Virus record (IMG/VR): IMGVR_UViG_3300030426_000089
Span: 1 to 23,527 of that record
DNA from: a virus
Strand: one strand, 5' to 3'
DNA: 23,527 nt
Made by a program: the position numbers and the translations under genes. Positions 4,966-13,904 of this stretch are shown here, one piece after another. The notes under the pieces were generated by a model. That model was given only the letters and a program-made list of their open reading frames with translations. It was not told the origin of the DNA and ran no database searches. The number at the start of each line of letters is the position of its first letter. Positions within the stretch are counted from its first letter, which is position 1.

Positions 4966-5896
4966 AAAGAACTTGAAACTGTTCAAGAAAACGGTTGTCG
5001 ACCCGGACACCGAAGCGGCGCTCTCTGTGGTGGAGATGGATAAGAAGCAGGAAGAATTGCGCATAGCCGAGCAGGAGCACCGGGAGAAGATGATCGGCCA
5101 GTGTTACAAAGCTATCGGCCAGGTGCAGACCTCGAACATGTTCGCGAAATTCGCGACCGTTAGCAGTTTGGTCTGGCTTCAGCAGGTTAAGGCATCGAAG
5201 GTCTACAGGGATATTCCAGGTATCGGAACATGGGATAAGTTCTGTGATTCCGTGGGGATGTCTCGCCAGAAGGTTGATGAAGACCTTGCGAATCTGGCCG
5301 CGTTCGGTGAGGAATTTTTGACGACATGTCAGCAATTATCGGTCGGCTACCGCGAACTGCGCAAGCTGCGCCAGCTCACCCATGACGGCTCGGTGGTCAT
5401 CGATGCCGAGTGCGTCAGGATCGGCGAAGAGCGCATCCCGTTATCCCCGGATCACAGCGAGGACCTGCAGGCCGCCATCGAGGCCTTGGTGGAGGCCAAA
5501 AACGCCGTCATCGATGAGCAAAAGGCCACCATGCGGGCCAAGGACAAGCTGCTATCGGCCAAAGAGCAGCTGATCAACAATCAGGAAAAGGAGATCGCCA
5601 GATACGAGGGGCGTGCCGAAAAGGCGGGCTATACGGCCGGTGAGGAGGCCCTCCTGCAGGATCTGGACAACTCGCGCACGATCCTGGACGGCTATCTGAT
5701 GCGCTACGACCCGGAGAAAAACCCGCTGCCGGAAGACGCCACCGTGCGCATGAAGGCCAAGTACATGCACACCCTGGATTACTTCAAACGCGTGATTTTG
5801 GCCGCCTATGACACGGCGGCCGACCTGTATGGCACGCCGGAAATCGATGACGACTGGGTTCCGCCGCACCTGCGGGCCAACAAAGCGGAGGAGTAA
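4958..5896 (+). CDS. Coiled-coil early phage protein, function unknown
   Basis: A 312-residue protein. Residues 25-50 and about 160-220 are strongly charged and probably coiled coil (EAKNAVIDEQKATMRAKDKL and the following residues). The region 75-110 (KASKVYRDIPGIGTWDKFCD, then SVGMSRQKVDEDL) looks like a helix-turn-helix-like unit of the type found in phage proteins that choose or bind DNA. The C-terminal third is helical and ends with DDDWVPPHLRA. I do not know its function. It overlaps the IclR-like gene and ends five bases before the transposase start, so it is probably made with the transposase. A GGGAG site supports the ATG at 4958. Confidence 0.75.
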   Translation: MAKKNLKLFKKTVVDPDTEAALSVVEMDKKQEELRIAEQEHREKMIGQCYKAIGQVQTSNMFAKFATVSSLVWLQQVKASKVYRDIPGIGTWDKFCDSVGMSRQKVDEDLANLAAFGEEFLTTCQQLSVGYRELRKLRQLTHDGSVVIDAECVRIGEERIPLSPDHSEDLQAAIEALVEAKNAVIDEQKATMRAKDKLLSAKEQLINNQEKEIARYEGRAEKAGYTAGEEALLQDLDNSRTILDGYLMRYDPEKNPLPEDATVRMKAKYMHTLDYFKRVILAAYDTAADLYGTPEIDDDWVPPHLRANKAEE

Positions 5897-9787: not shown

Positions 9788-10286
9788 ACCCAACAGCATT
9801 AAACCGATCGCCGATCTTGGCCAGGCCAACGAGGCCCTGGCCGAAATCGCCGGCATCAAGCGCCAGATCGCGGCCATCGAGGCGGATATGAATGCCGCCA
9901 TCGATCAGGTCAAGGCCCAAAGCGAGGCGCAGGCCGCGCCGTTGCAGGCCCGCATCACGGTCATCGAGGGCGGTTTGCAGGCGTTTGCCGAGTACAACAA
10001 AAAGACCCTGTTTGCCGACAAACGCAGCCGCGATCTGGATTACGGCGTGATCGGCTACCGCAAATCGAGCCAGATCAAGCCCAAGGTCAAGCACACCTGG
10101 GAGATGGTCCTGGGCCTGCTAAAGGATATGAAATTTGGGAGCGCCATCCGCACCAAAGAGGAGGTCAATAAAGAGGAGCTGGCCACCTGGCCGACCGAGC
10201 GGCTCGATCTGGTGGGCGCGCGGCGCGTGGATAAAGATGCCTTCTGGTACGAGACCAGCCAGGAGAAGATCACCGAAAAAGCCTGA
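9774..10286 (+). CDS. gam: Gam-like host-nuclease inhibitor
   Basis: A 170-residue protein of the Mu Gam type. It has a long N-terminal helical region (EIAGIKRQIAAIEADMNAAIDQVKAQ), then the family core FAEYNKKTLFADKRSRDLDYGVIGYRKS, and the ending ELATWPTERLDLVGARRVDKDAFWYE, all typical in order and spacing. Mu Gam is a Ku-like dimer that binds double-stranded DNA ends and blocks host exonuclease attack, and its length is about 174 residues, close to this one. The start at 9774 is chosen because GGAGG at 9760-9764 is nine bases away; the ATG at 9765 is directly next to that site and too close. Confidence 0.93.
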   Translation: MARSKPNSIKPIADLGQANEALAEIAGIKRQIAAIEADMNAAIDQVKAQSEAQAAPLQARITVIEGGLQAFAEYNKKTLFADKRSRDLDYGVIGYRKSSQIKPKVKHTWEMVLGLLKDMKFGSAIRTKEEVNKEELATWPTERLDLVGARRVDKDAFWYETSQEKITEKA

Positions 10287-10292
10287 TGCGAA

Positions 10293-10313
10293 ATCCCGCC
10301 CCAGTGGCGGGAT
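10293..10313 (+). other. Short perfect hairpin after gam
   Basis: ATCCCGCC and GGCGGGAT form an 8-bp stem with a five-base loop, seven bases after the Gam stop. No U-run follows, so a classical terminator is not supported. It may protect mRNA ends or lower expression of downstream genes. Confidence 0.45.
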
Positions 10314-10368
10314 CGTCGCCCGGTGGCGCGGGCGGCCTGATGAGCAGCCACAACCAAGGAGGCGAACG

Positions 10369-12889: not shown

Positions 12890-13216
12890 ATGACCGATCC
12901 CATAAACGATATCCTTAACGAAGATCTGCCCGAAGATTTGCGGCAGATCGCCGAGATTATCGGGTTGGACAAGCTGCTGGAATTGTCCGCCCGGATGGGC
13001 GGCGACCGCATCCACATCCCGCTGCCCGAAAAGTTGGCCGTTGCAGCGCGCAACCGGGCGATCCGGAGCGCGTTCAACGGTCGCAACTACCGCGATTTGG
13101 CCATCCAGTACGGGTTGACCGTGCGCTGGATCCGGGCGATCGTCTCCGGCGAAACGGCTGCCGGCCGCCGCGCCGACGCCGACGAATCTGTTTACAAGCA
13201 GATCAAAATGTTTTAG
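12890..13216 (+). CDS. mor: Mor-family middle/late transcription activator
   Basis: A 108-residue protein of the Mor/C family. The N-terminal dimerisation part contains LPEDLRQIAEIIGLDKLLELSARMGG and IHIPLPEKL, and the C-terminal helix-turn-helix is RAIRSAFNGRNYRDLAIQYGLTVRWIRAIV. In Mu, Mor binds just upstream of the middle promoter and recruits RNA polymerase; C does the same for late promoters. Only one such gene is seen here, so it may do both jobs. It is the last gene before the lysis block, and its targets are likely to lie in the following gap. Confidence 0.9.
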   Translation: MTDPINDILNEDLPEDLRQIAEIIGLDKLLELSARMGGDRIHIPLPEKLAVAARNRAIRSAFNGRNYRDLAIQYGLTVRWIRAIVSGETAAGRRADADESVYKQIKMF

Positions 13217-13409
13217 CGTCTGTTTGTTATCCTGCCTGATTTTCAATCCCCCAAAGAGAAGCGATAAACTGCAGTACTTCGGTGGCGTTTTCCGCGCCGC
13301 GCCGGCTATTAGTAAATCCTGACGGGCTGGGAGAAGTTCTGAAGGTTGTGCGCCGCAAGGCGCGCAGCCTTCAGGACACACCCTTCTCAAACGCGAACAG
13401 GATTTTTCC
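13217..13409 (+). promoter_or_regulatory. Intergenic control region before the lysis genes
   Basis: This 193-bp gap between the Mor-like gene and the endolysin is the largest in the plus-strand part of the window. It should hold the Mor-dependent promoter. A possible -10 box TAAACT is at 13265-13270 without a good -35 box, as expected for an activator-dependent promoter. The downstream half holds a long hairpin (13339-13374). Confidence 0.5.
13339..13374 (+). other. Long hairpin with GCAA tetraloop upstream of the endolysin
   Basis: Two 16-base arms (13339-13354 and 13359-13374) pair throughout, with two G-U wobbles and a four-base GCAA loop of the stable GNRA type. The wobbles pair only in plus-strand RNA, so the structure is likely to act in the plus-strand transcript. 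A further GAGAAG/CTTCTC pairing (13331-13336 with 13383-13388) could extend it. There is no U-run after it. It may be a leader element of the late mRNA, an attenuator, or a small RNA. Confidence 0.65.
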
Positions 13410-13904
13410 ATGCCGGATGCCATTGTGCTGCACCACTCGCTGACCAGGGACGGCGCCACCGTCTCCTGGCCCGCCATTCGAAAATACCACACCTCGTACA
13501 AGTGCGAGGGCTATAGCGTCGATCCGGACCAGGTGCCGGCCTTGATCGCACAAGGCGCGCCGGTTACGCCCCCGTGGTCGGATATCGGCTACCACATCGG
13601 CATCGAGCTGGTCGATCAGCATTACGAGATCCTGATCGGGCGCATGCTGGACGCGCCGGGCGCGCACTGTCCGGCTGGCGGCATGAACCGCCGCGCGCTG
13701 GGTATTTTGTTCGTCGGCAACTTCGATTTGGCGCCACCGCCGCTCGACCAACTGGCCCTGGGCTTGCGCCTGGTGCGCTCGCTGCAGCAGCTCTTTGCCA
13801 TTCCCACGGAGCGCGTGTTCGGCCACAGGGAGGTCGCGCGCGACGGGCGCACCTGCCCCGGCAAATACTTTAATCTGCCACAATTCCGCAGCGATCTGGC
13901 TTAA
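13410..13904 (+). CDS. Endolysin: T7-lysozyme-type N-acetylmuramoyl-L-alanine amidase
   Basis: A 164-residue amidase of the Amidase_2/PGRP fold. Expected zinc ligands are His8 (LHHS), His139 (FGHRE) and Cys149 (TCPG), as in T7 lysozyme. Tyr61 of GYH and His86 of GAHC match the usual active-site positions. It cleaves the bond between muramic acid and the peptide stem of peptidoglycan. It has no signal peptide, so it should depend on a holin to leave the cytoplasm; a holin-like gene follows. The start at 13410 has an ACAGGA site. Confidence 0.9.
   Translation: MPDAIVLHHSLTRDGATVSWPAIRKYHTSYKCEGYSVDPDQVPALIAQGAPVTPPWSDIGYHIGIELVDQHYEILIGRMLDAPGAHCPAGGMNRRALGILFVGNFDLAPPPLDQLALGLRLVRSLQQLFAIPTERVFGHREVARDGRTCPGKYFNLPQFRSDLA

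Follow-up and report, generated by a model that had tools for sequence, protein, structure and literature searches.

A possible start-site-dependent translational lock in the endolysin leader of a clade of Mu-like phages

The window analyzed here is a 23,527-base contig of a Mu-like phage, in which a Pfam search recognizes Mu Gam, GemA, Mor and a DUF1804-like protein. A mor-like activator gene encoding 108 amino acids (plus strand, 12890-13216; PF08765 Mor, 58.4 bits, E 8.4e-16) is the last gene ahead of a leader of 193 nt. The leader runs directly into the gene for an endolysin, an N-acetylmuramoyl-L-alanine amidase (plus strand, 13410-13904; PF01510 Amidase_2, E 1.9e-13), whose ATG start at 13410 is consistent with the starts in relatives. 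Searches of viral contigs that used the Mor and amidase proteins as queries, both singly and as alignments, yielded eight more complete leaders. Specifically, L002, L005, L006, L009 and L034 precede the amidase type found in the window, and L032, L033 and L035 precede other endolysins. The order of mor, a gap of about 150-210 nt and an endolysin gene is common to all nine phages, the window included. These comparisons draw on metagenomic virus contigs with no host assigned; no useful close relatives were found among named phages, plasmids or 199 genomes of the bacterial class to which one further contig, L007, has been binned.

The nine leaders share the motif GAAG-N7-CTGNAGTRCTTCGGTRG, or a near match, followed after 23 nt by a -10-like hexamer. 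The hexamers of the window and L033 were assigned by the 23-nt rule taken from the other seven leaders, such that the spacing in these two is not independent evidence; the -10 sequences chosen at first had been off by 2 nt (window) and 11 nt (L033). In the window, the predicted Mor site conserved across the nine leaders is ACTGCAGTACTTCGGT (plus strand, 13268-13283), an imperfect dyad with six of eight positions symmetric, and the predicted hexamer, TATTAG (plus strand, 13307-13312), lies 23 nt after the motif. If the late transcript begins seven bases past the hexamer, at about 13319 (range 13316-13322, with 13319-13322 likely and 13316 possible), then the dyad is centered at -43.5, given a 16-bp frame that was chosen so as to end with the conserved block. 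This is the position of the 16-bp Mor element in the Pm promoter of Mu, where a dyad centered at -43.5 likewise takes the place of a -35 element and is served by a Mor-family activator (PMC4390567). Thus, the features of a Mor-dependent middle promoter, namely a dyad centered at -43.5, a -10 sequence and an adjacent Mor-family gene, occur together, and from these sequence elements we predict both Mor binding and a Mor-dependent late promoter. Unlike Pm, the predicted promoter drives an endolysin gene immediately after mor, whereas in Mu it is C that precedes the endolysin and the gap contains a hairpin with a T-run.

The motif GAAG-N7-CTGNAGTRCTTCGGTRG occurs only once in the window (13253-13286) and could serve as a search pattern for Mor-dependent promoters within the clade. 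L007, a contig assigned to a genome bin labeled Anaerolineae, carries a Mor relative and the same promoter motif at 5001-5420; its leader ends at the contig edge and is not among the nine complete leaders. Such a Mor is absent from every other genome among the 199 of Anaerolineae, and therefore the L007 contig may be mis-binned.

Downstream of the predicted start, the leader folds into a long hairpin, P3 (plus strand, 13336-13377), whose arms (13336-13354 and 13359-13377) form 16 Watson-Crick and three U-G pairs, with a C-G pair closing a GCAA tetraloop at 13355-13358. An initial annotation of this DNA had reported the hairpin and its loop correctly, with a stem of 16 pairs including two G-U pairs; the stem in fact has 19 pairs, three of them G-U. 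The outer helix in that description also exists, in the sequence and in the fold of RNA from 13307, as helix P2 (GAGAA at 13331-13335 and TTCTC at 13384-13388, plus strand), which is set apart from the main stem by a 6-nt bulge at 13378-13383. P2 has five rather than six base pairs, because the claimed sixth pair shares G13336 with the main stem. The judgment that this structure is far beyond chance holds: the fold of 13320-13400 (-44.9 kcal/mol, z -5.6) was equaled by none of 200 dinucleotide shuffles, and the hairpin is the most stable 60-nt fold (-41.3) among 9,388 such segments on both strands (mean -16.1, sd 6.0).

A long hairpin exceeds chance in five of the six amidase leaders (the window, L005, L006, L009 and L034) and is marginal in the sixth, L002 (p 0.055). 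It is not significant in the three leaders of other endolysins, L032, L033 and L035. Because alignment of the leaders with MAFFT left the hairpins unaligned, the arms were compared directly and no covariance model was used. This comparison revealed compensatory changes in relatives. Between the window and L005, 14 loop-side pairs align free of gaps, of which eight are identical, two differ on one side and four differ on both sides. All changed pairs remain standard, and nine of the 14 bases in the 5′ arm are the same (p 0.007). In the hairpin arms of the relatives, G-U outnumber A-C combinations six to two, which is a weak hint that the plus-strand RNA is the form that matters.

The relatives' hairpins share no conserved loop or sequence motif. 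Between 13200 and 13450, no Rfam family reaches its gathering score (mir-938 falls far below the cut-off and on the opposite strand), and a known riboswitch, ribozyme or small RNA family was rejected on these grounds. A repeat element was likewise rejected, since the window record holds no second copy and an exact-pattern search of viral contigs gave no match. An RNA anti-CRISPR that mimics a CRISPR repeat was considered since phages carry such solitary hairpins (PMC10651486), and was set aside because sequence varies without constraint among the hairpins of the relatives, which are part of an mRNA leader.

An additional helix, P1, lies just outside the region that the initial annotation had marked. 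This outermost helix of 8 bp joins an anti-Shine-Dalgarno strand, AAATCCTG (plus strand, 13314-13321), located mostly upstream of the predicted +1, to CAGGATTT (plus strand, 13398-13405), which includes the endolysin Shine-Dalgarno sequence CAGGA at 13398-13402. The P1 duplex is valued at -9.8 kcal/mol, and none of 2000 shuffles equaled it. Its mean pair probability is 0.97 in a transcript that starts at 13217, at the mor stop, and 0.87 when the RNA begins at the hexamer.

The relationship between the two P1 strands was tested by comparing own with exchanged partners. For each of the nine leaders, the 10 nt that follow the -10 hexamer were matched to the 24 nt immediately preceding a start codon, either in the same leader or in another. 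The own pairings sum to -75.4 kcal/mol, compared with -52.2 (sd 5.5) for permuted ones, and only one in 100,000 permutations is as good (overall z about -4, p<5e-5). When one leader of each similar pair is dropped, the seven less redundant leaders still give p values of 2-3e-4; sequence common to related leaders would make this permutation err, if at all, on the conservative side. As the segment is slid in 3-nt steps, with offsets counted from the first base of the hexamer, a clear signal appears only at +3 (z -4.1) and +6 (z -4.2), and none of the 20 other offsets gives a p value below 0.03 (two are at about 0.04). Targets that omit at least 12 nt nearest the start codon give no signal, and the result is robust to segment size. 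The signal in the nine leaders is therefore restricted to the segment between the -10 sequence and the +1, as far as starts that are themselves predicted can define it. From these pairings we conclude that, at the level of sequence, the -10/+1 stretch co-varies with the ribosome-binding region of its own lysis gene.

Folding calculations indicate how the presence of this stretch could affect translation. With the initiation region defined as 16 nt before the gene to 3 nt inside it, the fold model predicts that more energy is needed to open this region in read-through RNA than in late transcripts, with a mean difference of 2.8-4.6 kcal/mol; the difference has this sign in eight to nine of the nine leaders. 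Because a longer RNA has more chance partners, segments were also swapped between leaders. Own segments raise the opening cost over swapped ones (p=0.0025), with an effect that is clear in only four of the nine leaders (the window, L002, L006 and L032). The own segment does no better than those of others in L005, L009, L034 and L033, and it brings little gain in L035. When accessibility of the Shine-Dalgarno sequence alone is considered, L006 shifts in the opposite direction, L005 is mixed and L032 remains closed; in the late transcript of the window, this sequence is just 40% open. A late start at or before 13316 would leave much of P1 in the late mRNA.

Shuffling the 5′ arm of the long hairpin lowers the P1 probability from 0.87 to a mean of 0.41 in RNA that begins at the hexamer. 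In long transcripts with the same alteration, P1 still forms with a probability of 0.83-0.86 (mean 0.84), versus 0.97 with the natural arm. As modeled, the hairpin thus aids the closure of this helix but is not the sole means of closing it.

Among the three roles offered in the initial annotation, a leader that controls the lysis gene is the best supported, given that the position is kept in relatives, that compensatory changes are present and that co-variation ties the outer helix to the ribosome-binding region. That annotation placed control in the hairpin itself. Instead, the co-varying control element looks like the helix just beyond it, and the long hairpin looks like a bridge that closes this outer helix. 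A free small RNA finds no support, as the hairpin has no promoter and terminator pair of its own, and an attenuator finds none in the form of a terminator. Specifically, a terminator scan found no intrinsic terminator on the plus strand of the window between 12800 and 14100, and no plus-strand match in this gap in L002, L005, L006, L009 or L034. The scan is not sensitive, as it also misses a hairpin in the phage FP_Mushu. The window, L005, L006, L009 and L034 all lack a T-run after the hairpin, in agreement with the earlier remark that this is not a standard terminator.

We lean, by a modest degree, toward a reading in which translation of the endolysin gene is locked in a start-site-dependent manner and the hairpin acts as the bridge of this lock. 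Because the scan finds no intrinsic terminator between mor and the lysis gene, we infer that early transcripts continue through mor into the latter. In this read-through RNA, folding and co-variation suggest that 13314-13321 would pair with the Shine-Dalgarno region at 13398-13405, as the long hairpin, together with P2 (13331-13388), brings the two strands together. Ribosome loading would thereby be blocked and premature lysis prevented. Once Mor accumulates, the predicted promoter would start transcripts near 13319, omitting most of the anti-Shine-Dalgarno strand. The read-through mRNA would carry the lock and the late mRNA would not, because the 5′ strand of P1 lies almost wholly before the predicted start. 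Late mRNA would retain the hairpin with a freed ribosome-binding site, and endolysin would be made. In such an arrangement, the lock would take over the task of a terminator.

The logic of this lock is known from phage T4, and it is the setting and the build that are new. For T4 gene e, experiments described in PMC3014915 (section 29) demonstrate a start-site-dependent lock of about 100-fold. There, a helix masks the ribosome-binding site in long early transcripts, and the late mRNA starts too far downstream to include the 5′ strand of that helix; soc, 49 and I-TevI are grouped with the gene e leader. The two systems have in common a lysis gene, a helix in long RNA that hides the ribosome-binding site and, given the start predicted here, the placement of the late promoter; in the present leader, the helix over the Shine-Dalgarno and start region is predicted for long transcripts. 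The arrangement described here differs in that the phage is unrelated, the predicted promoter depends on Mor and the system is known from computation. Furthermore, the strands are 76 nt apart and joined by a long bridging hairpin, and their sequences co-vary between phages.

We are evenly divided on the broader proposal that this clade of Mu-like phages times lysis by a self-contained RNA lock, independent of that of T4, whose key strand is the -10/+1 stretch of the late promoter. As part of this joint proposal, the same DNA segment would act as a promoter in the late phase and as an anti-Shine-Dalgarno sequence early, and it would drift together with the ribosome-binding site. In a literature whose coverage was thin for subscription journals, we found no description of a leader of this kind from a Mu-like phage.

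Other functions for the hairpin must be weighed against the translational lock. Leaders of the ompA type carry a 5′ stabilizing hairpin that protects against decay dependent on the 5′ end, and the stem-loop described here resembles these in being stable and close to the 5′ end of an mRNA. If it shields the late mRNA in this manner, then the complementarity within P1 would be secondary. The predicted +1 lies 10-20 nt ahead of the stem in the window, and the position of the hairpin is kept in five of six amidase leaders despite sequence change, as expected for a stabilizer. However, the stem stands off the very 5′ end, a significant hairpin is missing from three related leaders, and the co-varying helix uses bases upstream of +1 that are missing from the late mRNA, which protection of that mRNA leaves unexplained. 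We therefore regard stabilization as an unlikely primary role, although it is compatible with a lock and the two are not mutually exclusive.

A second alternative is that the hairpin ends early mor transcripts as a factor-dependent or otherwise non-canonical terminator or attenuator. Terminator-like hairpins with T-runs can be seen by eye between mor or C and the first late gene in FP_Mushu (L047, 1880-1918), BalMu-1 (L048, 1868-1905) and Mu (L049, 880-909), which is the same place in the operon, and the present structure shares with intrinsic terminators a GC-rich hairpin between two operon parts. In contrast, it has a GNRA loop, the U-run is missing from the window and four of its amidase relatives, where the insensitive scan, as in L002, was also empty, and it is positioned inside the late leader, where a terminator would halt late transcripts too. 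This explanation appears doubtful.

RNase III cuts long RNA stems, and the put sites of HK022 are antitermination signals read by RNA polymerase. The stems observed here, which span 13-19 bp with few or no mismatches, would suit RNase III, and they sit where a long late operon begins, so that either a processing site or a put-like element could aid late transcription. Both leave P1 unexplained, and the conserved loop or sequence motif expected of a polymerase-binding element is not seen among the relatives, making this role improbable. Least probable is a DNA-level element or chance (a protein-bound palindrome, a mobile hairpin or a functionless GC-rich inverted repeat), given that the arms keep pairing even as their sequences diverge among phages with Mor proteins 60-72% identical to that of the window, that neither the window record nor viral contigs hold another copy and that the fold is far beyond shuffles, even though inverted repeats are symmetric in DNA and the excess of G-U over A-C is merely six to two.

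If the lock operates as proposed, then transposable phages evolved the lysozyme trick of T4 a second time, using one promoter segment for two purposes. This would explain how these phages avoid early lysis without a terminator between the activator gene and the endolysin gene. Own-versus-cross pairing of the -10/+1 segment with the ribosome-binding region is a simple computed signature for which other phages can be screened.

The window also carries a type II hammerhead ribozyme (RF02276, 57.3 bits; plus strand, 10286-10353) directly after Mu gam. It is kept in three related phages: in L006 at 1493-1557 on the plus strand, and on the minus strand in the contigs that contain L005 (L027, 4918-4982) and L009 (L029, 13848-13914). 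Such ribozymes are already known from prophage operons (PMC3088659), and the one described here may separate gam from gemA by cutting the early transcript.
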